Source of the DNA: Hanstruepera neustonica
GTDB lineage: Bacteria; Bacteroidota; Bacteroidia; Flavobacteriales; Flavobacteriaceae
Assembly: GCF_002895005.1 (NCBI RefSeq)
Contig: NZ_POWF01000002.1
Span: forward strand, 310,001 to 374,000
DNA: 64,000 nt
Direction: 5' to 3'
Within the stretch, counting starts at the first letter, position 1; every line of letters starts with the position of its first letter. The notes below the pieces were generated by a model. The model searched no databases and had not been told where the DNA came from. It was given only the letters and a program-made list of their open reading frames with translations. Position numbers and translations under genes: made by a program. This document shows positions 4,499-26,117 of this stretch, piece after piece.

Positions 4499-5548
4499 TT
4501 ATAAAATTAACATGGCATCACCATAACTGTAAAATTTGTACTTTTCTTTTACGGCTTCATCATAAGCTCTTTTAATAAAATCATGTCCTGCAAAAGCAGA
4601 TGCCATCATTAATAGTGTTGATTTTGGTGTATGGAAATTGGTTATCATGCAATTGGCTATACTAAAATCGTAGGGTGGAAAAATAAACTTGTTGGACCAT
4701 CCTTCAAATTCATTCAAAGTACCACTAGATGACACCGAACTTTCAATAGCACGCATTACGGTAGTTCCTACAGCACATACACGTTTTTTATTTTTGATAC
4801 CCTTGTTTATAGTATCAACTGCTGGCTTATTAATAATAATCTCTTCACTATCCATTTTATGTTTGGATAAATCCTCAACTTCAACAGGGTTAAAAGTACC
4901 TAATCCCACATGAAGAGTTACTTCTGCAAAATTGACTCCTTTAATTTCCAAACGTTTTAATAAGTGCTTTGAAAAGTGTAAGCCAGCTGTGGGAGCAGCA
5001 ACCGCACCTTCATTTTTTGCGAAAATCGTTTGGTAACGTTCTTCATCTTCTGGCTCTACATCACGTTTTATATATTTTGGTAATGGTGTCTGACCCAACT
5101 CGTTTAATTTCATTCTAAAATCCCTGTACGATCCATCATATAAAAAACGTAGGGTACGTCCTCTGGAGGTTGTATTGTCAATAACTTCAGCTACTAACGT
5201 TTCATCATCACCAAAGTATAACTTATTACCAATTCTAATCTTTCTAGCTGGATCAACCAAAACATCCCATAGACGCTGTTCCTCATTTAACTCGCGTAAC
5301 AAAAACACTTCAATTCTAGCTCCAGTTTTTTCCTTATTACCATAAAGTCTAGCAGGAAATACCTTGGTGTTGTTTAAAATCATCACGTCATCCTCATCAA
5401 AATAATCAATTAAATCTTTGAAGTATTTGTGTTCGATAGATTCATCTTTTCTATTAAGAACCATTAATCGTGCTTCATCCCTGTTTTCAGAAGGGTATTC
5501 GGCCAACAATTCATCTGGCAGATTAAAATTAAAGTGTGATAATTTCAT
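4499..5548 (-). CDS. queA: S-adenosylmethionine:tRNA ribosyltransferase-isomerase
   Basis: A 349-residue enzyme of queuosine synthesis. It transfers and isomerises the ribosyl part of SAM onto preQ1 in tRNA to give epoxyqueuosine. Visible family motifs are [19 protein letters not shown] at the start, [10 protein letters not shown], the [10 protein letters not shown] core, TLHVGLGTF and the C-terminal GDAMLIL. Length is normal. It has its own well-formed promoter immediately upstream, so it need not depend on read-through from aroA. Confidence 0.97.
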
Positions 5549-5594
5549 TTGCTGTTATTTAATTAAAATTTGTGTTTGTTTTTTGTAAAAGGTG

Positions 5595-5626
5595 CAAATA
5601 TACAATCTGAAAGTAGGGGTTGTCAA
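5595..5626 (-). promoter_or_regulatory. Bacteroidota-type promoter of queA
   Basis: On the minus strand a TTG is followed after 21 nt by TATATTTG. This matches the Bacteroidota consensus (-33 TTG, -7 TAnnTTTG) without mismatch. It lies about 50 bp upstream of the queA start codon. Confidence 0.75.
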
Positions 5627-5641
5627 GTATTTAACCAATTA

Positions 5642-6868
5642 TTATTGAGATACTTTGATCCCAAGTGTTTTTAGATCATCCCAAAAACTAGGGTACGATT
5701 TGGAAACCACTTCAAAATCGTTAATTACGATATCTGTTTTAAGGCAAAGTGGCGCAAAGGCCATGGCCATTCTATGATCATTATAGGTGTCAATGGAAAC
5801 AGCTTTCGTTATGGTATTACATACTTCTAACTTTAGGCTATCATTAGAAATATGGACTGTTCCTCCTAACTTTTCTAGCTCGGTTTTGAGAGCCTGTAAT
5901 CTATCAGTCTCCTTTATTTTAAGAGTGTGTAATCCTGTTAGCTCACATGACAATCCGAGTCCAAAAGAAGTAACAGCAATGGTTTGCGCTATATCAGGTG
6001 CGTTTACCAAATGACACTCGAAATGAGTTTTTAAAGGCTCATTGATTTTTTGCAGCGTCAATCTGCCATCTTTAAAAATGGAATTTACCCCAAAATCCTT
6101 GTAGATTTCCTTTAAAACCGTATCACCTTGAATACTTTGTTCATTAAATGAGACTAACGTAATCGTTGTCCCTATGGGACTTAACGCCGCTAAACTATAA
6201 AAATACGAAGCCGAAGACCAATCGCTTTCCACCACAATGGTTTGATTATTGATTTCATCTTGATGTTGTACTTGGATAACCTGTCCTTCAAAACTGGTTT
6301 CAATTCCAATTTGATTCAATAAACTCAGTGTCATATTTATGTAAGGCTTGGAAGTGATGTTGCCTTCCAAAATCAATTTTAAACCATTTTGAAGTTTCGG
6401 AGCGATAAGTAGCAATGCCGATATATATTGGCTGCTAACATCGGCTTTTAAAACCACTTCAGATTTTGAAAGTATTTTTCCTTTGATTCTCAATGGTGGA
6501 TATCCTTTCTTCCCTAAATAACCCATATCGGCTCCTAGATCCTTTAAAGCATCAACTAAAATTTCTATAGGACGTTCCTGCATTCTTGAAGATCCCGTTA
6601 AGGTAATTTCCTTTCCTATTTGAACAGCGTAATACGCAGTAAGAAAGCGCATAGCGGTGCCAGCATGATGAACATCAATTGTCTTTAAATCGCTTTGGAG
6701 CGCTCTTTGCATGACTTCAGAATCATCTGAATGCGATAAGTTGGTTATGTTTAAATTAGGGAAAAGCGCTTGTAACAACAGTAATCTATTGGATTCACTT
6801 TTTGAGCCTGTAATGACAATTGGAGATGATTGATTTGATAATGCCGATTGATGGAGTGTAATATCCAT
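5642..6868 (-). CDS. aroA: 3-phosphoshikimate 1-carboxyvinyltransferase (EPSP synthase)
   Basis: A 408-residue enzyme that joins shikimate-3-phosphate and PEP to EPSP in the shikimate pathway. Visible motifs are ITGSKSESNRLL (phosphate-binding SKSxxxR), HHAGTAMRFLTAYYA, the DVSSQYISALLL segment, LKIKETDRL and DTYNDHRMAMAFAPL (the DHRMAMA signature). It is the last gene of the long aromatic operon and shares one base with the mazG-like gene before it. It is somewhat shorter than the ~427 residues of E. coli AroA, as is usual in Bacteroidota. Confidence 0.96.
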   Translation of the reverse strand: MDITLHQSALSNQSSPIVITGSKSESNRLLLLQALFPNLNITNLSHSDDSEVMQRALQSDLKTIDVHHAGTAMRFLTAYYAVQIGKEITLTGSSRMQERPIEILVDALKDLGADMGYLGKKGYPPLRIKGKILSKSEVVLKADVSSQYISALLLIAPKLQNGLKLILEGNITSKPYINMTLSLLNQIGIETSFEGQVIQVQHQDEINNQTIVVESDWSSASYFYSLAALSPIGTTITLVSFNEQSIQGDTVLKEIYKDFGVNSIFKDGRLTLQKINEPLKTHFECHLVNAPDIAQTIAVTSFGLGLSCELTGLHTLKIKETDRLQALKTELEKLGGTVHISNDSLKLEVCNTITKAVSIDTYNDHRMAMAFAPLCLKTDIVINDFEVVSKSYPSFWDDLKTLGIKVSQ

Positions 6869-7197
6869 TATTTTTTTAGCTTATCATTATTGTGGTGCCT
6901 ATCGTGATCTCTTTTGGTTTTTTTTGCCATCTTTTTGTCAAAAGCCGCTTGCAAATCAATACCTGTCTGATTGGCCAAACACAATACTACAAAAACAACA
7001 TCAGCCAATTCTTCGCCAAGATCCTTATCCTTGTCACTTTCTTTTTCACTTTGTTCTCCATAACGTCTCGCTATAATGCGTGCAACTTCACCAACCTCTT
7101 CCGTAAGTTGCGCCATATTAGTGAGTTCATTGAAATAACGAACACCATGTTCTTGTATCCAATTGTCAACTATTTTCTGTGCGTTTTGTAAATTCAT
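6868..7197 (-). CDS. MazG-like nucleotide pyrophosphohydrolase
   Basis: A 109-residue all-alpha NTP-PPase. The metal-binding pattern is visible as LTEEVGEVARII (ExxE) followed by EELADVVFVVLCLAN (ExxD). It hydrolyses nucleoside triphosphates to monophosphate and pyrophosphate and probably cleans up aberrant nucleotides. It is the size of single-domain MazG homologs and lies between a DUF3857 gene (1-bp gap) and aroA (1-bp overlap). This location in an aromatic amino acid operon has no obvious metabolic reason. Confidence 0.88.
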   Translation of the reverse strand: MNLQNAQKIVDNWIQEHGVRYFNELTNMAQLTEEVGEVARIIARRYGEQSEKESDKDKDLGEELADVVFVVLCLANQTGIDLQAAFDKKMAKKTKRDHDRHHNNDKLKK

Positions 7198-7198
7198 G

Positions 7199-9205
7199 TT
7201 ACCCTTTTTTCAACACAACTTTTTCTGTTTCTTTTTCTATTACAAATTCAAAAAACTTCTTGAATTGCTTGTATTCATTCGTTAAAATTAGTGATTTGTT
7301 AAGGTCTAAATTTATAGAAAATTGCAACATACTACCATTTTCGCGTGCTAAATATGAGAATTCGCCTTCTCTACCATTAAATTCAATTTTTGAACTTTCA
7401 GGTAAACTTTCAACAACATAACCTTCTGGCAACATAACGTTGACCGTATATTTTTCTGAAATTGGAAAAATGAAATCAATCGGATAAGATCTATTTTCTT
7501 GTTTAAATATATTCTCCTTTGGCGTAAAAAATAACATTGGTGAGAAATACAATTTATCTCCAATTTCTTCCACTTCATTTTCCACGTGGTAATCATATGA
7601 ATAGGTTATTGGTTTTTCAACCTCATACTGATTTGTAAATTCCAGATTTGAAATTTCAATGTTACCCTTATTTTTTTCCAAACGTGCTATGTGAGACTCC
7701 TCATCTAACCCTTTATAATCATCTCTAAAGTTATAGGCTAAATAATTTGAAAATAATGTTCTTACTTTTCCATCCACAGATAAATCAGTATTCAATTTTG
7801 CATTAATAGAAGTAATTTCCTTTGAACTCATACTAGGTAATAAATTAACCCAAGCCGAACTACCATGTTCCCTAACAATTCTTCCTTGCCAATTTAATGT
7901 ATGCGTTGGCAAGATATTGGCTGTTGCATTAGCATCGGTTGCATCCAACATTATCAATCCATCTGGCACCTCAATTGCGGCAATAACATAATTAAATCCC
8001 TTTCTAGTGGCAACAATAGGGATACCATTACTGCGTGTACTCAACAATACAGGATTCGCATTAAGCCCTGCATATCGTAGCATAGCAACCAACATCAAAT
8101 TAATATCCGCCACATTGCCTTCACCAGTTTTGTAAGCTTGTTTCACACCTTGATCTGAAGAATAACCAACAAAGTCATTTTGTTTAACCTTACTCTTTAC
8201 AAAGCTGTATATTTTAAAAGCCTTTTCCATGGGGTCACTAACTCCTTGTAAAATAGCATTCAAATCATCTTCAAAATAATTGGTTTTTTGAAGTTGACCT
8301 CCAAAACTCTCACTATCATATATTCTTTTAACTACTTGATCCCAATCCGTCGCATAGATTTCTGACTGTCCATTCGGCCCCTTGAAATAGGCATACTCCA
8401 TTATTAATTTTGCTCTGTAATTATTAATGTTGTCAGTATAGGGTTCTAATTTTAACGCTGGCACATTGTTGGCGTTAATCATAACTATATTTTCTTGAAA
8501 TTGCCAATCGGCAGAAGATCTATTTACACCTGCTTGCTCAAAATCGGATCGACTTCCCTTTCTAATTTCTGTTCTTGAAACTGAATTTTCTTCCAAATTT
8601 GGATAAAAAGTTGATTTGGGATTCAGCAATTTATTGAATACAAAGTATTCAGGTGTTCTAACATCAACCTCCAATACATTAATTGGTACGTTATATTGAA
8701 GAATAATATCCTCTATGCCATAAAATGGGGACTCAATACGATATTCATACTCAATTACAACACCGTCATTAATACTAGGCATAGTAAATTTGGTAGTAGC
8801 CCAATAATCATTGACCTTTTCCTCAAAAATACTTTCGTTTTTCAATTTATCTTTTTCAACCTTCCCACCATCCAAGTAATAAGTATAAGCTTTCAAGCCT
8901 TTTAATTCTTGCTTTTTTGTAGCTGATTCATCATATAACCTAACTTGATGGGTTGCATAATCATAACCGTCCTTATCATAAATTTTAATTCTTTCGGTAA
9001 TTTCATTGACTTGAACAAAACCTTCATTTTCACGATAATCAAAATAAACCTTATAACTTTTATAAAGAACTGCTGCATGTGCGGAAGAATCTAACGGATG
9101 TACTTTTTCTGAAAGTTCTTCTTTACTAACTTTTCCAAATTTGAAATTTTGGGCAAAACTAATGTGAATGGTGATAAATAGAAGAATGGTTAGTGTGTAT
9201 TTCAT
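7199..9205 (-). CDS. DUF3857/transglutaminase-like secreted protein (copy 1)
   Basis: A 668-residue protein with an N-terminal signal peptide (MKYTLTILLFITIHISFAQ). Residues about 50-260 fit DUF3857, a beta-rich domain, and residues about 290-420 fit a transglutaminase-like fold. At the expected catalytic position the sequence reads KTGEGNVADINLMLVAMLRYAGL. The usual Cys of the GxCxD motif is replaced here by Val (GNVADI), so this copy may be catalytically dead. The C-terminal third is beta-rich DUF3858-like sequence. It is probably periplasmic or surface-linked. It follows its paralog by 10 bp inside the aromatic operon. Function unknown. Confidence 0.85.
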   Translation of the reverse strand: MKYTLTILLFITIHISFAQNFKFGKVSKEELSEKVHPLDSSAHAAVLYKSYKVYFDYRENEGFVQVNEITERIKIYDKDGYDYATHQVRLYDESATKKQELKGLKAYTYYLDGGKVEKDKLKNESIFEEKVNDYWATTKFTMPSINDGVVIEYEYRIESPFYGIEDIILQYNVPINVLEVDVRTPEYFVFNKLLNPKSTFYPNLEENSVSRTEIRKGSRSDFEQAGVNRSSADWQFQENIVMINANNVPALKLEPYTDNINNYRAKLIMEYAYFKGPNGQSEIYATDWDQVVKRIYDSESFGGQLQKTNYFEDDLNAILQGVSDPMEKAFKIYSFVKSKVKQNDFVGYSSDQGVKQAYKTGEGNVADINLMLVAMLRYAGLNANPVLLSTRSNGIPIVATRKGFNYVIAAIEVPDGLIMLDATDANATANILPTHTLNWQGRIVREHGSSAWVNLLPSMSSKEITSINAKLNTDLSVDGKVRTLFSNYLAYNFRDDYKGLDEESHIARLEKNKGNIEISNLEFTNQYEVEKPITYSYDYHVENEVEEIGDKLYFSPMLFFTPKENIFKQENRSYPIDFIFPISEKYTVNVMLPEGYVVESLPESSKIEFNGREGEFSYLARENGSMLQFSINLDLNKSLILTNEYKQFKKFFEFVIEKETEKVVLKKG

Positions 9206-9215
9206 TTTTAAATTT

Positions 9216-11120
9216 TTACTGTTTTCGTTTTAATGCTATTTTAGATTTATCGTGCCTTATAATATCAAGCCAAAATTTTCTAAAATCCTGATAGTGTTCT
9301 TGATTATAAGTCCCTTTTTTGAGAAGAAATTTTCTTTTAAACATCAATTTATTGGGTTCAACTTCTTTTATTGAATAGGTATATTCTCCAAATTGATTAT
9401 TTATATTGACATCTTCTTGTAAAGATTCCACCTCAAAATTATTTGGAATAGCTATTTCAAATTCATCAATATCTAAAAAACCTCTATCAACTTCGACTGG
9501 ATGCTTTCTGTCATTATATCGAGGTGGAGCATTCATAACTCTATTAAAAGCATTTGGCTGAAATAGCAATCTATTGCCAGATTTTGAAGCATAATTAGAA
9601 GCTTCAACATGAATGTTTTCTGATAACTGAACCTTTGTTTTATCATTAATTATTTCACAATCACCTATGGTCAATCCATTAATATAATCCCAATACTCCT
9701 TAAAATGTAAATCCTTATCCTTATCCGTTTTTCCTAAGACCTTTTCATGTGTGCTGTATTGCGTGCCAGTTGATGTCATTTGAACTGATGCCTTGATATT
9801 TCCAGCCTCATCTAATGTAATTTGCGCATTAGTTTTTAGTAAATTATCATTTGCATTATATACCCTAGTATGCATAACTTGGCCTCCATCAGGTGTTATT
9901 ACAAGAGCATCTCTGTCATCAGTAAAACTAGCGATATGTCCAAATGGGTTTGTTTGACTAGTGCATTCTAACCAAATATCCTCGCCATCTACAGGTAAGT
10001 ATAAAATGGCGTGATTACCTTCGGTAGCCGAAAAATCTTTATCTACATTCACAATATTTCTATCACCATAGATAATAGTATAGTATGATTCTAAACCGAC
10101 CTCCTGCATTAAGGCTTTTGTATAATTTGTGAGTGCTTTACAATCACCATATCCCAATCTGTCAACATCTGAAGCATACATAGGTTTCCATCCTCCTATT
10201 CCAACCTGAACACTAATATAGCGTGTTTTGTTTTGCATATATTCATAGACTATTCTTGCTTTTTCAAGGTCTGTTGTTGAATTAGCTGTGAGGATTTTAA
10301 TTTCATCCTTAATACTTTGTGGTAATTCGGAAGTATTTGAAAGCAATTGATTATTTACCCACATTCCAAATCCTTTCCAGCCATTATTACTTCCTCTCAC
10401 GCCTTCCATTTCAAACTCCGCTAATGCTAATCGTAAATGAGGTGCAAAAGCCCTAAATGACGGCGCATAGGCTTCTGGCTTTAGTGAACTTAAATGAGTG
10501 GCTTTGTAATATGTGTCACCTATTTTTTCAATTTCATAATCTTCAAAATTTAAGGTTTTAATTTTTAAATCTACTCCTGAAGTGTTGACAACTTCATAAT
10601 GCGATTCTTGGGTACTCACAAAATACCCTTCTATAGGCATCCAATCAGGCAAAAATGCCGTTGATTTGAATTGCACCTCTAATTCAAAGTCCACAGTATA
10701 TGGATAACTGATAGGTGTGTAATTTAAATATTTTTGTCTGTTTTCTGAATATAGTGTTCCTCCTGAAACGGCACTAACATCATTAAAATCTTTTTCTTTA
10801 ATTTTTTTTATTTGGTTTCCATTTGCATCATAAATTCTACATTCCATTTTTTTAATGATACGGTTACTATTGTAACCTGCTAAAGCTCTCACGTTAGAAT
10901 CACCATATTCATTTAATACAGTAATAATTCTACGATTCGTATAATAGACATCATTATAATCGGATACTTCCAGTTTTTCACTATTGAAACGAATTACGGC
11001 ATTAGCTTTATTTTTTAAATCCAATGGAATATTGTAAGCATTGAATACGTCCTCATCTTGAGAAAACAAGATAAAAGGGAAACTACATAAAATGAATAGA
11101 ATGAAAAATCTAGAACTCAT
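9216..11120 (-). CDS. DUF3857/transglutaminase-like secreted protein (copy 2)
   Basis: A 634-residue paralog of the next gene with a signal peptide (FFILFILCSFPFILFSQDED). It has the same order: DUF3857 at about 50-250, transglutaminase core at about 280-400 and a beta-rich tail. Here the transglutaminase motif is intact (GYGDCKALTNYTKALMQE, with the nucleophilic Cys and following Asp), and a downstream EGNHAILYLP supplies the expected His. This copy therefore looks catalytically competent where copy 1 does not. A 68-bp gap separates it from dtd, the widest gap in the operon, so an internal promoter is possible. The substrate is unknown. Confidence 0.87.
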   Translation of the reverse strand: MSSRFFILFILCSFPFILFSQDEDVFNAYNIPLDLKNKANAVIRFNSEKLEVSDYNDVYYTNRRIITVLNEYGDSNVRALAGYNSNRIIKKMECRIYDANGNQIKKIKEKDFNDVSAVSGGTLYSENRQKYLNYTPISYPYTVDFELEVQFKSTAFLPDWMPIEGYFVSTQESHYEVVNTSGVDLKIKTLNFEDYEIEKIGDTYYKATHLSSLKPEAYAPSFRAFAPHLRLALAEFEMEGVRGSNNGWKGFGMWVNNQLLSNTSELPQSIKDEIKILTANSTTDLEKARIVYEYMQNKTRYISVQVGIGGWKPMYASDVDRLGYGDCKALTNYTKALMQEVGLESYYTIIYGDRNIVNVDKDFSATEGNHAILYLPVDGEDIWLECTSQTNPFGHIASFTDDRDALVITPDGGQVMHTRVYNANDNLLKTNAQITLDEAGNIKASVQMTSTGTQYSTHEKVLGKTDKDKDLHFKEYWDYINGLTIGDCEIINDKTKVQLSENIHVEASNYASKSGNRLLFQPNAFNRVMNAPPRYNDRKHPVEVDRGFLDIDEFEIAIPNNFEVESLQEDVNINNQFGEYTYSIKEVEPNKLMFKRKFLLKKGTYNQEHYQDFRKFWLDIIRHDKSKIALKRKQ

Positions 11121-11188
11121 TACTGGAAATTATTCCATAAAAATATAATTAATTACAAAAGATTAAGCCAGAAAGTAAAAAAAATAAC

Positions 11189-11641
11189 TTAAATTTTATC
11201 TTTAGAATCAACAATTATGGTCACTGGTCCATCATTCAACAATCCCACTTTCATATCGGCACCAAATTCACCAGATTGCACCTTTTTGCCAAAATCAGTT
11301 TCTAGTTGTTTAATAAAAGTCTCATACAATGGAATAGCCAATTCAGGTTTTGCGGCTTTGATGTAACTGGGTCTGTTTCCCTTTTTTGTACTAGCATGCA
11401 ATGTAAACTGACTAACCACAATAATTTCACCATTCACGTCTAGAATTGATCTATTCATAACACCATTCGCATCAGGAAAAATGCGCATATTAACAATCTT
11501 ATTGGATAACCACTGAATGTCTTCCAATGTATCGTCATCAACAATACCAAGCAATATCAACAGTCCGTTTTGAATATCAGCTATTTTCACATTTTCAACC
11601 GTAACACTGGCTTTTGACACTCTTTGTATAACTACCTTCAT
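11189..11641 (-). CDS. dtd: D-aminoacyl-tRNA deacylase
   Basis: A 150-residue proofreading enzyme that hydrolyses D-aminoacyl-tRNAs (and Gly-tRNA-Ala). The two active-site signatures are present: VSQFTLHAS (SQFTL) and LNDGPVTIIV (GPVT). Length is normal for the family. It overlaps the end of rsgA by 4 bp, indicating co-translation. Its place in an operon that makes Tyr and Phe is suggestive, since D-Tyr-tRNA is the classic substrate, but this is inference. Confidence 0.96.
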   Translation of the reverse strand: MKVVIQRVSKASVTVENVKIADIQNGLLILLGIVDDDTLEDIQWLSNKIVNMRIFPDANGVMNRSILDVNGEIIVVSQFTLHASTKKGNRPSYIKAAKPELAIPLYETFIKQLETDFGKKVQSGEFGADMKVGLLNDGPVTIIVDSKDKI

Positions 11642-12594
11642 AATGATTCATTATCCCAATTATCTGTTCGATAGTTTTCATCTTCACCCTCGAGTATTTG
11701 AATATAACTACGATAACGTGAATACGCAATATCACCATTTTCAAGGGCATCTTTTACAGCACATTTTGGTTCATCAATGTGAATACAATTGTTAAACTTA
11801 CAGTCCTGTTTTAGCGCAAAAAATTCAGGAAAATAATCTCCAACTTCTTCTCGATCCATATCCACCACTCCAAAGCCTTTGATACCAGGAGTATCAATTA
11901 TCTTGGCTCCGAAACTTAAATCAAACATTTCAGCAAACGTTGTGGTATGTTGACCTTGCATATGTTGATTGGATATTTCTTTGGTTTTCAAATCCAGCGT
12001 TGGTTCAATAACATTAACTAAAGTCGATTTTCCAACACCAGAGTGTCCAGCAAACATACTCACCTTATCCTTCATCAAGGCTTTAACTTTATCAATATTT
12101 TTTCCTGTTTTGGCAGAAATACCAATACACTCATAACCAATCTTTCTATAAACATGAGCCAAATATTTTACCTCATCCAATGTGTCACCGTAATAGGAAT
12201 CAACTTTATTAAACAGTAAAACCGTTTTGACGTCATAAGCTTGAGCTGTGACCAAAAAGCGATCGATAAAGCTGGTAAATGTTGGTGGATTGTCAATGGT
12301 AATCAACAAAAATACTTGATCAATATTGGCAGCAATGATGTGGGTTTGTTTCGATAGGTTTACCGATTTTCTTACGATGTAGTTTTCACGGTCGTGAATG
12401 GATTCAATCACACCAGTAACTTCATCATTTTTGGTTTCCAGTTCAAAATCTACAACATCACCAACTGCAATAGGATTGGTACTTTTTATGCCTTTAAGCC
12501 TAAACTTACCTTTAATTCGGCATTGATAACTTGCACCCAATGTTGTTTTTACGGTGTACCAACTTCCAGTAGATTTATAAACAGTTCCTGTCAT
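11638..12594 (-). CDS. rsgA: Ribosome small-subunit-dependent GTPase A
   Basis: A 318-residue circularly permuted GTPase that acts in 30S subunit maturation. The order is an OB-fold at about 1-70, then the G4 motif FNKVD, G1 GHSGVGKSTLVN, G3 DTPGIKGFG, and a C-terminal zinc module with CKFNNCIHIDEPKC. This permuted order (G4 before G1) is diagnostic of the family. It is embedded between the DAHP synthase gene and dtd. Confidence 0.97.
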   Translation of the reverse strand: MTGTVYKSTGSWYTVKTTLGASYQCRIKGKFRLKGIKSTNPIAVGDVVDFELETKNDEVTGVIESIHDRENYIVRKSVNLSKQTHIIAANIDQVFLLITIDNPPTFTSFIDRFLVTAQAYDVKTVLLFNKVDSYYGDTLDEVKYLAHVYRKIGYECIGISAKTGKNIDKVKALMKDKVSMFAGHSGVGKSTLVNVIEPTLDLKTKEISNQHMQGQHTTTFAEMFDLSFGAKIIDTPGIKGFGVVDMDREEVGDYFPEFFALKQDCKFNNCIHIDEPKCAVKDALENGDIAYSRYRSYIQILEGEDENYRTDNWDNESL

Positions 12595-12615: not shown

Positions 12616-13701
12616 CTAATTAGCATTGATAATCTTCTCCTGATGATTGATAGATTCTTGGTGAACGGCTTTAAAAACTCTTAATATAAATTCTTCACTT
12701 AAATTCTTTTCTTCACCCTGCAATATCATTTTACCCAAAATTTCATTCCAACGTTTGGTTTGTAAAACAGCCACATTGTGAACTTTTTTAAGGGATCCAA
12801 TGTCATCGGCTACCTTCATACGCTTACCAAGTATTTCAATTAGTTGATGATCTATAACATCTATCTGTGTTCGAAGTGTGTTTATCTTATTTTTGAATTC
12901 AGCCGCCTCACCAGTTTCCTTTCTGATTTTTAAGTCGTCCATAAACTGAATAAGTGTGCTCGGTGTAATTTGCTGTGCTGCATCACTCCAAGCATTATCA
13001 GGATCAAAATGCGTTTCTACCATTAAACCATCATAATTTAAATCTAGAGCCGTTTGACATAAATCGAAAATGATATCGCGTCGTCCAGCTATATGAGAAG
13101 GGTCCAAAATAAGGGGTAAATCTGGGAAACGATTTTGTAAATCAATAGGTAATTGCCATTCTGGGTTATTTCTATATCGGGTTTTTTCGTAGGTTGAAAA
13201 CCCTCTATGGATAACTCCTAATTTTTTGACATTGGCTGTATAAAATCTTTCGACAGCTCCCAACCATAAAGCCAAATCTGGATTAACCGGATTCTTGACC
13301 AATACCGTTTTATCCGTCCCCTTTAAGGCTTCAGCAATTTCCTGAACTATAAATGGGCTCACAGTCGTTCTGGCACCTATCCATAGAATATCCACATCAT
13401 GCTGTAATGCCAAATCCACATGATTCGCATTGGCCACTTCCGTGGTAATGAGCATACCCGTTTCTTCTTTTGCTTTTTGCAACCATTTAAGTCCCAATGC
13501 ACCTACACCCTCAAAATTTCCTGGACGTGTTCTGGGTTTCCAGATACCGGCTCGTAAAACCGTAGCATCACTATCTTTTAATTGATGCGCTATTTTTAAG
13601 ACCTGCTCTTCGGTCTCTGCGCTACAGGGACCTGCTATGACCAATGGATGATTCAACCCAAATGCATCTAACCAAGACCTTAATTCCTTTTTGTTTTCCA
13701 T
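12616..13701 (-). CDS. Bifunctional DAHP synthase / chorismate mutase
   Basis: A 361-residue fusion. Residues about 1-265 are a type I-beta (KdsA-like) 3-deoxy-7-phosphoheptulonate synthase, with GPCSAETEEQVL, LRAGIWKPRTRPG, LVKNPVNPD and LILDPSHIAGRRD. Residues about 270-361 are an AroQ-class chorismate mutase (RTQIDVIDHQLIEILGKRM, then KRWNEIL). It therefore catalyses both the first committed shikimate step and the branch toward prephenate. In enzymes of this type the mutase domain commonly mediates feedback inhibition by prephenate. It lies 12 bp after tyrA in the aromatic operon. The symbol is left empty because naming differs between genomes. Confidence 0.95.
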   Translation of the reverse strand: MENKKELRSWLDAFGLNHPLVIAGPCSAETEEQVLKIAHQLKDSDATVLRAGIWKPRTRPGNFEGVGALGLKWLQKAKEETGMLITTEVANANHVDLALQHDVDILWIGARTTVSPFIVQEIAEALKGTDKTVLVKNPVNPDLALWLGAVERFYTANVKKLGVIHRGFSTYEKTRYRNNPEWQLPIDLQNRFPDLPLILDPSHIAGRRDIIFDLCQTALDLNYDGLMVETHFDPDNAWSDAAQQITPSTLIQFMDDLKIRKETGEAAEFKNKINTLRTQIDVIDHQLIEILGKRMKVADDIGSLKKVHNVAVLQTKRWNEILGKMILQGEEKNLSEEFILRVFKAVHQESINHQEKIINAN

Positions 13702-13713
13702 AGTCTTTTTCCT

Positions 13714-14565
13714 TTATTTTATTCCGTTTAATATATCCTTAATATGATTGGTATTTCTCATTTCATTGTAGATTTCATCAAAATCATCATGCTTCATAAA
13801 ATCTTTAAAAGCAGTCAAATTTTGAATATACTCTTCCAAGGTTTCAATAACATTCGTTTTATTTTGTCTAAAAATAGGTGTCCACATGTCAGGTGAACTT
13901 TTTGCCAATCGAACTGTTGAAGCGAAACCACTGCCCGCCAAATCAAAAATATCCCGTTCGTTTTTTTCCTTTTCTATGACTGTTTTTCCAAGCATAAATG
14001 AACTGATGTGTGATAAATGCGACACATACGCAATATGTTTGTCATGGGCTTCAGGGTTCATATAACGAATACGCATACCCATAATTTTAAATATCGCCAA
14101 TGCACGTTCCTGTAACTTGAATGCCGTTTTTTCAACTTCGCAGATAATGTTGGTTTTTCCCTGAAATAGACCTTCCATAGCAGCTTTTGGCCCAGAAAAC
14201 TCCGTTCCAGCAATGGGATGGGTTGCTAAAAAATTTCGGCGTTTGGGGTGGTTAGCAACACTGTTACAAATGGCTGACTTTGTGGAACCGGACTCCATTA
14301 CCAAGGCATCATCTGAAACAGCATCTAAAATTTTCGGAAGCATTTCAACCGTAGCATCTACTGGAATAGACACAATCACAATATCGGCCTGTTTTAAATC
14401 GTTAAACGCCGCTTTCTTGTCAATGATTCCAAGTTCCAAAGCTTCTTCCAGATGACTGTTATTACTATCAATTCCATGAATGGTAATTTCTGGATTGAGC
14501 TTTTTAACATCTTTGGCAATACTGCCACCAATTAAACCAACTCCTATGATATAAATATTCTTCAT
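13714..14565 (-). CDS. tyrA: Prephenate dehydrogenase
   Basis: A 283-residue NAD(P)-dependent enzyme converting prephenate to 4-hydroxyphenylpyruvate for tyrosine. The N-terminal Rossmann motif is IGVGLIGGSIAKD. The substrate-binding His lies in FLATHPIAGTEFSGPKAA, and a further catalytic region is HLSHISSFML. It is monofunctional, with no mutase or ACT domain. It sits 6 bp after the aminotransferase and 12 bp before the DAHP synthase/mutase, giving a complete Tyr branch in one transcript. Confidence 0.95.
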   Translation of the reverse strand: MKNIYIIGVGLIGGSIAKDVKKLNPEITIHGIDSNNSHLEEALELGIIDKKAAFNDLKQADIVIVSIPVDATVEMLPKILDAVSDDALVMESGSTKSAICNSVANHPKRRNFLATHPIAGTEFSGPKAAMEGLFQGKTNIICEVEKTAFKLQERALAIFKIMGMRIRYMNPEAHDKHIAYVSHLSHISSFMLGKTVIEKEKNERDIFDLAGSGFASTVRLAKSSPDMWTPIFRQNKTNVIETLEEYIQNLTAFKDFMKHDDFDEIYNEMRNTNHIKDILNGIK

Positions 14566-14571
14566 ACTTTT

Positions 14572-15714
14572 TTATATTCTGGCTAATGCTTCTTCTAAAT
14601 CATCCGTAGTAGCACACAGTGAAAAACGAATATACCCTTCGCCTTTTGAACCGAAGATGGTACCTGGAGCGACAAAAATGTTTTTGTCCTTAAGTAACAC
14701 ATCAATAAATTCTTCCGATTTTACATAAGCCGGTAATTTTGCCCAAACAAACATCCCTGAGCTATATTTGTCATAAGTACAGTTGAGTGCTTCGGCTATT
14801 TTCCAAACAATTTCACGTCGCTGTTCATAGACATTATTGAGACTGACATACCATAGTTTGGTACACTTTAAAGCTTCTATAGCACCTTTTTGAATACCAT
14901 AAAACATCCCGGAATCCATATTGCTCTTAACTTTTAAAATGGCATTAATGAACTCGGATTTTCCCAAGACCATTCCTACGCGCCATCCAGCCATATTAAA
15001 GGTTTTGCTTAATGAGTTTAACTCCAAACAAACCTCTTTGGCTCCCGAAATGCTAAACAAACTTTTTGGTGAATCATTCAAGATAAAACTATACGGATTA
15101 TCATTGACAAGTAAAATTTGATGCCTTTTTGCAAAAGCCACCAATCGTGTAAAAAAAGCTTCACTAGCCTTTGCTCCTGTTGGCATATGGGGATAGCTTA
15201 TCCACATGAGTTTGACGTTTGACAAATCTTGTTCTTCCAGAGCATCTAAGTCGGGCAACCAATTATTGGAAGCATCCAATTCATAAAAAATGGGTTTGGC
15301 ACCAACCAATTTAGTCACCGATGTATAAGTCGGATAACCCGGATTTGGAATAAGCACACCATCACCTTCATTTAAAAAAGCCATCGAGATGTGCATAATC
15401 CCTTCTTTGCTTCCCATAAGCGGCAATACTTCAGTTGAAGGACTCATATACACATCAAACATATCACGATAAAATGCCACAATAGCCTCGCGCAGTTCCG
15501 GTAAGCCTTGATAACTTTGATATTTATGCGCCTGTTCATCATTCAAACCTTCAACCAAAGCCGAAATGACTTTTTGAGGTGGCTGCAAATCCGGACTACC
15601 AATACCCAAGTTAATAATTGGTTTACCGTTAGCCTTTAAAAAATTGACCTCGCGCAACTTCCTTGAGAAATAGTATTCCTCTACTGATTCCAGTCTATTT
15701 GCAAATTCAATCAT
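14572..15714 (-). CDS. PLP-dependent class I/II aminotransferase, probably the aromatic transaminase
   Basis: A 380-residue fold-type I aminotransferase. The PLP-binding Lys is in LNSLSKTFNMAGWRVGM. NPGYPTYTSV and the C-terminal GEGYIRFSLCA supply the conserved Asn/Tyr and carboxylate-binding Arg. It overlaps the end of pheA by 4 bp and is followed by tyrA, so it most likely transaminates phenylpyruvate and 4-hydroxyphenylpyruvate to Phe and Tyr. Family membership alone would also allow LL-diaminopimelate or aspartate aminotransferase activity. The assignment rests on operon position. Confidence 0.9.
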   Translation of the reverse strand: MIEFANRLESVEEYYFSRKLREVNFLKANGKPIINLGIGSPDLQPPQKVISALVEGLNDEQAHKYQSYQGLPELREAIVAFYRDMFDVYMSPSTEVLPLMGSKEGIMHISMAFLNEGDGVLIPNPGYPTYTSVTKLVGAKPIFYELDASNNWLPDLDALEEQDLSNVKLMWISYPHMPTGAKASEAFFTRLVAFAKRHQILLVNDNPYSFILNDSPKSLFSISGAKEVCLELNSLSKTFNMAGWRVGMVLGKSEFINAILKVKSNMDSGMFYGIQKGAIEALKCTKLWYVSLNNVYEQRREIVWKIAEALNCTYDKYSSGMFVWAKLPAYVKSEEFIDVLLKDKNIFVAPGTIFGSKGEGYIRFSLCATTDDLEEALARI

Positions 15715-16538
15715 GGTTTCGCATTTATATATTCTCCCAATACCTTAAAATGTTCTGTCATTATGGTCATTATGGACTTGGCTTTTTTAAAATGTTTATA
15801 ATCATCAAAAGTAACATCAATAAAAAAAGCATATTTCCAAGGTGTTTCAATTTTAGGCAGGGATTGTATTTTGGTTAAATTCAAATGACAATCACTCATC
15901 ACATTCAACATAGCTGCCAAACTCCCCCTTTTGTGTTCCAACTCAAATTTCAGTGATGCTTTATTTATACGATTTTCAGCAACTTCATGATTTTCTCGTT
16001 TCACTATAACAAATCGCGTTTCGTTATGTTTAATAGTCTGAATACTTTTGGCTACTATCTCTAAACCATATAGTTCGGAAGCTAATTGGCTTCCAATAGC
16101 TGCTATTTTTTTGACTTCAGTATCTGCAATCCGTTTAGCTACTTCGGCTGTATCAATATCTTCTACAAGTTTCATATGCGGGTAGGTCTTAAAAAAATCC
16201 TTACACTGTAGCAGTGCCATTGGGTGTGAACGAACTTCCTCAATTTCTTGTAAAGATTGATTTGGCAATGCCATTAAACAGTGCTGAATATCCAAATAAT
16301 GCTCACCGACAATATGCAAATTATGTGTATCAATCAAAGCATAGTTAGGAATTATGGAGCCTGCAATTGAATTTTCTAATGCCATAACCACAGCATCTGT
16401 TTCATCAGTCAACAAACTTTGAACCGCACTATCAAAAGTCAAACATTCTTGAATGGTAACTTCCTTTCCAAAATATTGATTGGAAACGATATGATGGAAT
16501 GATCCTTTTATACCTTGTATGGCAACCGATTTTATCAT
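15711..16538 (-). CDS. pheA: Prephenate dehydratase
   Basis: A 275-residue enzyme converting prephenate to phenylpyruvate. The catalytic domain covers about 1-180 (IQGIKGSFHH, NSIAGSIIPNY, and NETRFVIVKR with the catalytic TRF). An ACT domain follows at about 190-270 (KFELEHKRGSLAAMLNVMS), the usual Phe feedback site. No chorismate mutase domain is present; that activity is supplied by the downstream fusion. It is the first enzyme gene of the operon. Its ATG lies only 2 nt after the poly-U tract of the attenuator, with no room for a Shine-Dalgarno sequence. Confidence 0.96.
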   Translation of the reverse strand: MIKSVAIQGIKGSFHHIVSNQYFGKEVTIQECLTFDSAVQSLLTDETDAVVMALENSIAGSIIPNYALIDTHNLHIVGEHYLDIQHCLMALPNQSLQEIEEVRSHPMALLQCKDFFKTYPHMKLVEDIDTAEVAKRIADTEVKKIAAIGSQLASELYGLEIVAKSIQTIKHNETRFVIVKRENHEVAENRINKASLKFELEHKRGSLAAMLNVMSDCHLNLTKIQSLPKIETPWKYAFFIDVTFDDYKHFKKAKSIMTIMTEHFKVLGEYINAKP

Positions 16539-16540
16539 GT

Positions 16541-16570
16541 AAAAAAAAAGTCCCGATTTCCATCGAGACT
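16541..16570 (-). terminator. Attenuator terminator of the aromatic operon
   Basis: On the minus strand AGTCTCGAT and ATCGGGACT form a 9-bp stem (one U-G pair) with a GGAA tetraloop, followed by an unbroken run of about nine U. It ends 2 nt before the pheA ATG. A competing antiterminator pairs CGAGAC (16610-16605) with GTCTCG (16569-16564), which is the 5' arm of this stem. The antiterminator is reinforced by TTATAG (16603-16598) pairing with CTATAA (16581-16576). Confidence 0.85.
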
Positions 16571-16597
16571 TATATTTATAGTTTATTCAAAATACAC

Positions 16598-16672
16598 CTA
16601 TAACGTCTCGTTTCTTCTGTAAAAAAAGAAATAATAACCGCTATAGTATGTAAAATTTGAGCTTGTTTTCAT
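16598..16672 (-). CDS. Phe/Tyr-rich leader peptide of the aromatic operon
   Basis: A 24-residue ORF starts ATG AAA ACA and ends with TAG. It contains FTYYSGYYFFFY followed by RRNETL: 4 Phe and 5 Tyr among 24 residues, with six consecutive aromatic codons (YYFFFY). The stop codon lies inside the 5' arm of the antiterminator. A ribosome that finishes the peptide would therefore mask that arm and let the terminator form, whereas stalling at Phe/Tyr codons would leave it free. This is the logic of pheL-type attenuation. It is too short for ordinary gene callers. Confidence 0.85.
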   Translation of the reverse strand: MKTSSNFTYYSGYYFFFYRRNETL

Positions 16673-16683
16673 AATCTGAATAG

Positions 16684-16714
16684 CTAAAGTAACCAATAAA
16701 ATGAAAAAACAAAA
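16684..16714 (-). promoter_or_regulatory. Predicted promoter of the aromatic operon leader
   Basis: On the minus strand TTTTG is followed after 18 nt by TACTTTAG, one mismatch from TAnnTTTG. Transcription from here would start only about 8-10 nt before the leader-peptide ATG, an unusually short 5' end. Confidence 0.55.
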
Positions 16715-16761: not shown

Positions 16762-16834
16762 AATAATAGAATTTCTAAATTGAGTGCTCTAAAAAAGAAA
16801 TTCTATTATTTTGGATTCCCGCCTTCACGGGAAT
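16762..16834. repeat. 14-bp inverted repeat plus REP-like palindrome
   Basis: AATAATAGAATTTC (16762-16775) and its exact complement GAAATTCTATTATT (16797-16810) flank a 21-nt loop. Directly after them lies ATTCCCGCCTTCACGGGAAT (16815-16834), a REP-like palindrome followed by GACAA. Related palindromes occur at the metF/metH junction. The whole block lies in the divergent spacer between the aromatic operon and gldA. Confidence 0.7.
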
Positions 16835-16899: not shown

Positions 16900-17796
16900 A
16901 TGTCAATATCCGTTGAAAACATAAGCAAACTTTATGGCGAACAAAAAGCTTTGAACCATGTTACGTTTAAGGTTAAAAAACCTGAAATTGTTGGGTTTTT
17001 AGGTCCTAACGGTGCTGGTAAGTCAACGATGATGAAAATCTTGACAACCTACATTGAACCATCGGAGGGTCAAGCCAAAGTCAATGATTTTGATATTACG
17101 GCTCAAAAAAAACAAGTACAACAAAGCGTTGGTTATTTGCCTGAACACAATCCATTATATCTGGAACAATATGTCAAAGAGTATTTAGCGTTCAATGCCC
17201 AAGTTTATGGGGTAAACAAAACACGCATAGATGAAGTCATTGAATTGACCGGATTAACGCCGGAAGCTCATAAAAAAATAGGGCAACTATCCAAAGGTTA
17301 CAGACAACGTGTTGGACTCGCCAATGCCATGTTACACAATCCTGATGTGCTCATTCTTGATGAACCTACAACGGGTCTGGACCCGAATCAATTGGTGGAT
17401 ATACGCAACTTAATCAAATCCATTGGTAAAGAAAAAACGGTATTCTTATCAACTCATATCATGCAAGAGGTGGAAGCTATGTGCGACCGTGTTATTATCA
17501 TCAATAAGGGTGAAATTGTAGCCAACAAAACCCTCAAGGAATTACGAGATGATAAGGAGCAAGTGGTTATTGTGGAATTTGACTATCGTGTGGAAGATGC
17601 CTTTTTATTAAAACTTCCAAAAGTGAAACAGGTTGAAAACACCCATGACTTTGTTTATGAAATCACCTTTTCAACAACTGATGATATGCGCTCGCATGTG
17701 TTTGATTTTGCCCATGATAATCAGTTAAAAATTCTTCAATTGAATCAAAAAAATGCCAGCTTGGAGAGTTTGTTTAGGGAGTTAACAGCTAATTAA
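16900..17796 (+). CDS. gldA: Gliding-motility ABC transporter ATP-binding protein GldA
   Basis: A 298-residue ABC ATPase. It shows Walker A GPNGAGKST near residue 36, the signature LSKGYRQRVG, Walker B VLILDEPTTGLDP, and the switch His in STHIMQEVE. The start MSISVENISKLYGEQKALN and the overall length match GldA, which works with GldF and GldG in Flavobacteria gliding. gldF and gldG are not adjacent. The 3' end overlaps the convergent DUF2807 gene by 8 bp. Confidence 0.9.
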   Translation: MSISVENISKLYGEQKALNHVTFKVKKPEIVGFLGPNGAGKSTMMKILTTYIEPSEGQAKVNDFDITAQKKQVQQSVGYLPEHNPLYLEQYVKEYLAFNAQVYGVNKTRIDEVIELTGLTPEAHKKIGQLSKGYRQRVGLANAMLHNPDVLILDEPTTGLDPNQLVDIRNLIKSIGKEKTVFLSTHIMQEVEAMCDRVIIINKGEIVANKTLKELRDDKEQVVIVEFDYRVEDAFLLKLPKVKQVENTHDFVYEITFSTTDDMRSHVFDFAHDNQLKILQLNQKNASLESLFRELTAN

Positions 17797-25738: not shown

Positions 25739-25788
25739 TTTAGTGTATTTAAAATGTCATCAAGAAAAGAGAGAAGAATTATTCTCGG

Positions 25789-25890
25789 GTTATCTGTCCC
25801 ATTCTATATGGGTAGAATTTAGCACCTTCTTTAAAAATAAAGGGTTGCTAAGGCTTCAACGGGTCTATTCCCTCTGCCTTTCGTGATAAC
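25789..25890 (-). promoter_or_regulatory. SAM-I (S-box) riboswitch of the metH operon
   Basis: On the minus strand the P1 helix GTTATC / GATAAC encloses the S-box core. The order is ACGAAAGGCAGAGGGA, then GACCCGTTGAAGCC and TTAGCAACC, a variable CTTTA/TAAAG helix, and AAGGTGCTAAATTCTACC. These are the conserved SAM-I segments (AGAGGG, GAY..GAAGCC, GGCAACC-like, GGUGCUAAWUCC). The expression platform may be the GAGAA/TTCTC hairpin plus U-rich tract downstream (about 25763-25786). SAM binding is expected to turn off methionine synthesis. Confidence 0.9.
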
Positions 25891-25921
25891 AAATCAGTAA
25901 ATTATTGAACGTTGTCGTGTA

Positions 25922-26010: not shown

Positions 26011-26025
26011 CCGAACAATTAATTA

Positions 26026-26117
26026 GAGGAAAAATTTGTCTGATTGCAACCTCATTAAAAAATGCTAAAGCAGTACCGATTTCACTTCTTTAGCTAGTAC
26101 GCAATCTCACTTTTTTT
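26026..26117 (+). promoter_or_regulatory. SAM-II-like riboswitch leader of metK with overlapping expression platform
   Basis: The core reads GAGG, AATTTGTCTG, ATTGCAAC, CTC, an A-rich linker and ATGCTAAAG. It follows the SAM-II pattern as I recall it: P1 stem, AUUU..., UUGCAA, closing stem, A-rich loop, GCUAAA. Downstream, CTTTAGC (26088-26094) is the exact complement of GCTAAAG (26064-26070), and GCAATC (26101-26106) the exact complement of GATTGC (26042-26047). A seven-T run follows at 26111. The alternative helices would sequester the ligand-binding segments. Class assignment is from memory of the motif, not from a covariance search. Confidence 0.7.

Follow-up and report, generated by a model that had tools for sequence, protein, structure and literature searches.

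In the enterobacterial pheA attenuator (Rfam family RF01859, Phe_leader), a leader peptide containing a run of phenylalanines is followed by a terminator, and the leader RNA can adopt alternative 1:2, 2:3 and 3:4 pairings. Attenuators such as those of ilvG and thrL carry codons for several end products within one leader. For the phylum Bacteroidota, the Bacteroid-trp family (RF01692) is listed in a section of PMC2864571, and a section of a 2021 Flavobacterium transcriptome study (PMC9723704) places a structured 5' RNA before pheA and gives clues to leader peptides in F. psychrophilum. A passage of an earlier article (PMC2965389, 2010) states that the only leader-peptide systems demonstrated, as far as its authors knew, were those of Proteobacteria and Actinobacteria, and adds the Firmicutes. 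The preliminary description of the locus analysed here took ribosome-stalling attenuation to be mainly proteobacterial. There are, however, Bacteroidota precedents in the RF01692 family, to which the trpE leader of this very genome belongs by its match (L191, positions 737-863; 70 bits, gathering score 49), and in the section of PMC9723704 mentioned above.

The locus lies on the minus strand of the window, that is, the whole stretch of 64,000 nucleotides of Hanstruepera neustonica DNA that was analysed (Table 1). The arrangement of promoter, leader ORF, terminator and antiterminator before pheA is confirmed, and the promoter, the aromatic-rich ORF of 24 codons and the nine-U terminator ending 2 nt before the gene are all present as had been claimed. 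The leader contains what is expected of an attenuator: an ORF rich in codons of the pathway, an intrinsic terminator, a covarying antiterminator that shares an arm with it, a protector, and aromatic codons at footprint distance. On comparative and modelling grounds, we read this leader as a transcription attenuator of the classical, ribosome-mediated kind that would control the aromatic operon, and give this reading a probability of about 0.92; the pheL-like attenuation proposed earlier is supported by the same comparison.

Table 1. Parts of the pheA leader and the genes that follow it, in window positions
Feature	Positions	Strand	Remarks
-33-like element TTTTG	16710..16714 (16714-16710)	-	basis: sequence
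-7 box TACTTTAG	16684..16691 (16691-16684)	-	11 nt before leader ATG
Leader ORF MKTSSNFTYYSGYYFFFYRRNETL, then stop	16598..16672	-	24 codons, 4 Phe, 5 Tyr, no Trp
Strand 1: Tyr/Phe codon stretch, protector arm	16624..16652	-	fold and covariation
Strand 2: ORF 3' end and stop codon, pairs with strand 1	16593..16618	-	fold and covariation
Antiterminator 5' arm CGAGAC	16605..16610	-	8 nt past last aromatic codon
Strand 3 GTCTCG: antiterminator 3' arm, also terminator 5' arm	16564..16569	-	
Terminator stem-loop AAGTCTCGAT-GGAA-ATCGGGACTT	16548..16571	-	-13.0 kcal/mol, z -4.8
T9 tract of terminator	16541..16549	-	two bases before pheA ATG (16538)
pheA, prephenate dehydratase	15711..16538	-	Pfam PF00800
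Aminotransferase class I/II	14572..15714	-	PF00155
tyrA, prephenate dehydrogenase	13714..14565	-	PF02153 and PF20463
DAHP synthase-chorismate mutase fusion	12616..13701	-	PF00793 and PF01817
Seven more consecutive ORFs	4499..12594	-	rsgA, dtd, 9216-11120, 7199-9205, mazG-like, aroA, queA

The promoter is of the Bacteroidota type, with a spacer of 18 nt (counted from TTTG) between two boxes that were assigned according to what we take to be the -33/-7 consensus of this phylum. A similar -7 box was found within 70 nt upstream in 92 of 98 family leaders, at a median of 17 nt before the leader ATG, by a permissive pattern without shuffled control. Scanning the leader for promoters of the E. coli type gave nothing above chance, as expected for Bacteroidota. 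From the position of the boxes, transcription would start so close to the ORF that the 5' UTR should be very short. Further upstream, at positions 16762-16810 of the window, there is a perfect 15-bp inverted repeat (AATAATAGAATTTCT/AGAAATTCTATTATT) followed by a CCCGCC-TTCA-CGGG-like hairpin, perhaps the remnant of a mobile repeat.

The terminator stem comprises 10 pairs, including G-U and two pairs that extend into the T run; it had been given as 9 bp, a difference that comes from the way of counting. The proposed antiterminator stands in its core, CGAGAC with GTCTCG, but not in its extension, TTATAG with CTATAA, since the minimum-energy fold of the element (-12.8 kcal/mol, z -3.0) uses UUAUA against UAUAA adjoining GUCUCG. 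Hence, the inner helix may have two possible registers. The gene closest to the leader on its upstream side (16900-17796, ABC-transporter-like by eye) is divergent, so the terminator probably does not serve some other transcript.

Conservation was analysed in 120 Flavobacteriaceae genomes, 102 of which yielded a pheA gene whose upstream region was taken. A leader was scored when an ORF starting with ATG had six or more F, Y or W within 12 residues and was followed by a terminator. Of the 101 family upstream regions of sufficient length, 98 have such a leader; of 303 dinucleotide shuffles, none does. Two more were recognized by eye, one in a sequence whose contig starts partway through the leader (L009) and the other lying farther upstream, behind repeats (L010), so that 100 of the 102 family pheA genes carry the leader. 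Inspection of L010 revealed repeated units of about 100 bp at 990-1400, between the attenuator terminator and pheA. The remaining two are a pheA without leader (L070, genome G023) and a locus with no leader in the 382 nt before the contig end (L083, genome G035). Of 80 named genomes, which overlap the family set of 102 and include Formosa, Psychroserpens, Gelidibacter, Lacinutrix, Olleya and Winogradskyella, 78 pass automatically; the last two break off at a contig end and show part of the leader. When the same pattern was sought upstream of other genes, it was found at hisG in 1/30, at trpE in 0/30 and at ilvD in 0/30, although the ilvD regions cut by contig ends (L262, L270, L272 and L274) may have been misread at a wrong offset. 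Phe and Tyr codons are favoured by AT-rich DNA, and a chance ORF might for this reason accompany an unregulated terminator or a small-RNA gene; however, the pattern appeared in 0 of 303 shuffles and in one of 90 control regions, and the upstream gene is divergent, which together make such an origin extremely unlikely.

Outside the family, the leader is found in 13 of 26 loci from other families of the class, distributed over nine families, with four more loci showing the ORF only, and in one of four loci from other families of the order, with two more showing the ORF only. None of 12 loci passes in one further family of the same order (f5), none of 12 in a family with 0.6-Mb genomes (f16; two with ORF only) and none of 29 loci from farther away in the phylum; these misses include two loci, cut by contig ends, for which the offset was probably wrong (L106, in f5, and L186). 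The counts leave aside 26 pheA places at order level for which there was no locus, one class-level place and the phylum-level places beyond 30 loci. A covariance model built from 40 leaders matched 145 of 199 family genomes, 131 of them only once, and its ten best matches with a known pheA position all adjoin pheA, nine of these ten having served to build the model.

The antiterminator pairing 2:3 covaries across the 98 loci. Its score, the best pairing of the terminator 5' arm with the ORF end, has a mean of 17.4 against 14.2 when strand 3 is taken from other species, and none of 20000 permutations was as high (highest 15.2); the z of 12.6, as the other z values of these comparisons, overstates the independent evidence because the sequences are related, and both the scores and the region limits are our own and were set after the first sequences had been seen. 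The core helix hardly varies inside the close clade, and the covariation comes from the wider set. In the 45 loci with a core other than GTCTCG z is 8.4; in the 53 GTCTCG loci the mean of 17.05 (z 3.8) lies inside the permutation range (highest 17.1). Strand 3 was found as GTCTCG, GTCCCG, GTCCTG, ATCCCG, ACCCGG or GCCTCG, with strands 2 and 4 matching each form; since the terminator is kept across all six, strand 4 changes too. Pair by pair, double changes within the close clade were seen in only 0/11 and 1/20 pairs, as its members are too alike, for which reason the wider set was examined by swap tests. It is in this wider set that the homologous leaders displayed the conserved aromatic codons and compensatory changes that the preliminary description had put forward as its test.

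A further helix, which the preliminary description did not contain, is formed by the aromatic codons with the ORF end and stop codon. This protector, 1:2, also covaries (17.7 versus 14.8, z 12.2, with 0/10000 permutations as high) in 155 distinct leaders out of the 98 plus 78, and does so both in the close clade (98 leaders, z 6.1) and in the rest (57, z 8.2). Examples are the duplexes of ATTATACATAT with GTATGTATAAT and of CTGGAACGGTTTT with GGGACTGTTCTAG; in the window CTATAGCG pairs with CGTTATAG. Taken individually the signals are modest: the 95th percentile of shuffles is exceeded by 78% of single leaders in the case of 2:3 and by 43% in that of 1:2. The ORF region of the window folds by itself as the protector (-17.3 kcal/mol, z -3.5, 2/200 shuffles as good), and so does that of L285, its nearest relative (-16.5, z -3.6). 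The fold of L040:149-235 was dropped, as it covered the 3' part of the leader instead of strands 1 and 2.

For consensus folding, 97 close leaders were thinned by similarity to 64, from which sets of 63 (A1, L073 left out) and 40 (A2) were used. In the fold of 40 leaders the Phe codons UUUCUUUUUU pair with a stretch that runs into GAGA, the antiterminator arm, and the fold of 63, without strand 4, has a shorter U-tract hairpin next to the antiterminator instead. The three Phe codons are TTC, TTT and TTT in 99, 99 and 100 of 101 close leaders, in which only the synonymous sites are informative because these leaders were picked for the FFF run; pairing to GAGA would explain why they are nearly fixed. 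The synonymous sites also bear on whether the peptide itself, and not a shortage of tRNA, might stall the ribosome, in the manner of the TnaC-like sensing of a free amino acid. The peptide is conserved past its aromatic residues (YTYYNWFYFFFSKRNETLYV), which speaks for such an arrest. However, that conservation is explained by base pairing, given that the residues KRNETLYV are those encoded by strand 2, and this strand covaries with both strand 1 and strand 3, and distant members exchange this part of the peptide (KRGTGLL, TERSGIVM). As the near-fixed synonymous sites likewise point to the RNA, arrest by the nascent peptide appears very unlikely.

Between the last aromatic codon and the antiterminator arm there are 7-15 nt in 96/98 leaders, most commonly 11, close to what the footprint of a ribosome requires. 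The conserved part of the leader, an aromatic-coding run at near-constant distance from the antiterminator, speaks against an ORF that is incidental to an RNA binding a tRNA or a metabolite, as a T-box or riboswitch does. The terminator/antiterminator logic is common to T-boxes, but no Rfam family reaches its gathering score on the leader, and T-box models gave no match listed up to E 10; the probability of such a device is close to nil.

The comparison of sequences thus gives the parts, their conservation, the covariation of 1:2 and 2:3 and a terminator kept throughout, and from these we infer that the ORF is translated, that ribosomes stall on it in a manner that depends on amino acids, and what follows for transcription. 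In the attenuator proposed, the very short 5' UTR would allow a ribosome to load on the leader ORF. When charged tRNAs are plentiful, the ribosome would pass the aromatic codons and cover strand 2, leaving strand 3 free to pair with strand 4 and to cause termination in the U tract before pheA. When aromatic tRNA is short, the ribosome would stall on an aromatic codon, holding strand 1 open and strand 2 bare, and the latter would capture strand 3 before strand 4 is made, so that transcription enters pheA. In the absence of a ribosome strand 1 would pair with strand 2, and termination should be favoured.

The switch was modelled by folding a transcript that ends before strand 4 with a ribosome masking from 15 nt before to 9 nt after the A-site codon, the values for E. 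coli. At 37 C, the mean predicted capture of strand 3 was 0.73-0.74 as long as the ribosome stood one to six codons short of the last aromatic codon and 0.70 on that codon, and fell to 0.51 one codon and 0.26 two codons past it. At 20 C, a control with shuffled strand 2 remained flat at 0.41-0.50, without a step, against 0.75 to 0.32 in the real leaders. In the window, predicted capture is 0.78 up to Phe17 and 0.10 on Tyr18, its final aromatic codon, a step one codon earlier than in the set and a point against the model. With the ribosome one codon short of the last aromatic, capture is higher than in the stop-codon state in 88/98 leaders, with no excess in 10/98, and higher than without ribosome in 89/98. 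This ribosome-free capture has a mean of 0.54-0.58 over the whole set (0.54 at 37 C), which is intermediate and not clearly terminating. Equilibrium folding with the complete terminator was set aside as uninformative for a kinetic switch, the terminator having a mean of 0.77-0.94 at any ribosome position. Since equilibrium favours termination at every position, the switch would have to act during RNA synthesis, as in known attenuators.

The specificity proposed earlier, for Phe and Tyr, fits the window copy, which lacks Trp, but probably not the family as a whole. Phe and Tyr codons are present in 98/98 family leaders, and Trp occurs as well in 68/98 of these and in 69/78 named leaders; in the close clade a Trp lies five codons before the last Phe in 74/101. 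The window leader has SG where its nearest relative reads NW, and therefore has probably lost its Trp. Across the family, the leader is rather likely to sense all three aromatic amino acids, a reading that suits an operon carrying the common entry enzyme, and which is kept at this strength because the Trp codon could be structural. If it were so, a codon placed in strand 1 would not be read, and the device would sense just Phe and Tyr. The TGG does lie within the protector helix in some species, and 30/98 leaders, that of the window included, have no Trp. Against this, the position of Trp varies by lineage (YNW, YFWNG, NFW), which is what retention of the codon itself would predict, and the DAHP synthase of the operon also serves Trp; a purely structural Trp is thus possible but rather doubtful. 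With some confidence, the three-aromatic reading can be extended to a single attenuator, old enough to be present in several Bacteroidia families, that would integrate the charging of Phe, Tyr and Trp tRNAs for the common entry and two terminal branches, and whose sensor codons would form the protector, hence their near-fixed synonymous sites. A three-tRNA attenuator would need close coupling of transcription and translation in a phylum that makes little use of Shine-Dalgarno sequences.

DAHP synthase, encoded fourth in the gene run, opens the pathway to all three aromatic amino acids. The operon had been described as comprising ten genes. What stands is a run of consecutive minus-strand ORFs, eleven in number from pheA to queA, and the seven from rsgA to queA would be members of the same operon. 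In this run, counting both strands, there are four terminator-like sites against a mean of 6.8 in shuffles, so that one long pheA-to-queA transcript is possible. Pfam assignments cover the run apart from ORFs 9216-11120 and 7199-9205, which were left out of the scan. Also in the same run as the aromatic genes are dtd (11189-11641), for D-Tyr-tRNA deacylase, and queA (4499-5548), for queuosine, a modification of tRNA-Tyr among others.

Leaders of the same type precede other amino-acid genes of the family. Trp-rich leaders were found before trpE in 29/30 loci, including this genome (MKTILNNTWWWKFRNLIS, with terminator), and His-rich leaders (such as MTFIQLHHHHFHICLQAK) before hisG in 29/30 loci examined (L195-L224), a terminator, often AAACCCGTTTGA-like, being found in 28/30. 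For the two hisG loci scanned, L195 and L209, Rfam gave nothing at the leader with E up to 1. As both kinds of leader match their pathways, they support reading the pheA leader as an attenuator. Upstream of ilvD (L255-L284), many loci contain short Ile/Val-rich ORFs (such as MNRQIINIISIIIVVIISHR) and terminators, which are possible ilv attenuators; a crude Ile/Leu/Val count without control gave 22/30 and is not relied on. Sub-threshold matches to the Rfam Thr_leader were noted in two ilvD loci (L256 and L264). In the whole genome from which the window comes, hisG and ilvD gave no family match, so this organism may need external His and branched-chain amino acids. The window also contains a SAM-I and a SAM-II riboswitch back to back, some 130 nt apart (25787-25892, minus strand, and 26020-26078, plus strand), preceding methionine-synthase-like genes in one direction and a metK-like gene in the other, the genes being named by eye. 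Control by leader peptides is probably a standard mode for amino-acid operons in Flavobacteriaceae.

Through this analysis, a conserved and hitherto unassigned RNA element of Flavobacteriaceae gains a probable function and mechanism. Because attenuators need a ribosome close behind the RNA polymerase, the pheA leader could be a ready reporter of transcription-translation coupling in Bacteroidota; this bearing on coupling, the triple-aromatic specificity and a protector made from sensor codons are worth experiment. To our knowledge, the combination of Phe, Tyr and Trp occurs in no described attenuator. No leader reading the three together was described in the literature searched, although an earlier prediction may exist in a comparative attenuation paper that is cited in a part of PMC4833913. 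The section of PMC9723704 on the pheA element names neither aromatic codons nor pheA pairings.

A sensitive scan with Phe_leader (RF01859) gave 19.7 bits for the window and 29.7 bits for L097, under the gathering score of 55, and Bacteroid-trp (RF01692) gave no match listed up to E 10 at the pheA leader of the window. By analogy, therefore, the leader is one that would work like the enterobacterial pheA attenuator while lying outside its Rfam family. It resembles that attenuator in its target gene, its Phe run, its terminator and its alternative pairings, and differs in adding Tyr and usually Trp codons. Bacteroid-trp belongs to the same phylum and is of the same kind, but is Trp-rich and has another target. 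In ilvG and thrL, as would be the case here, several end products are represented in one leader, the products here being aromatic amino acids. Hence, while the classical kind of device and its precedents in the phylum are known, the probable triple-aromatic specificity is what would be new.
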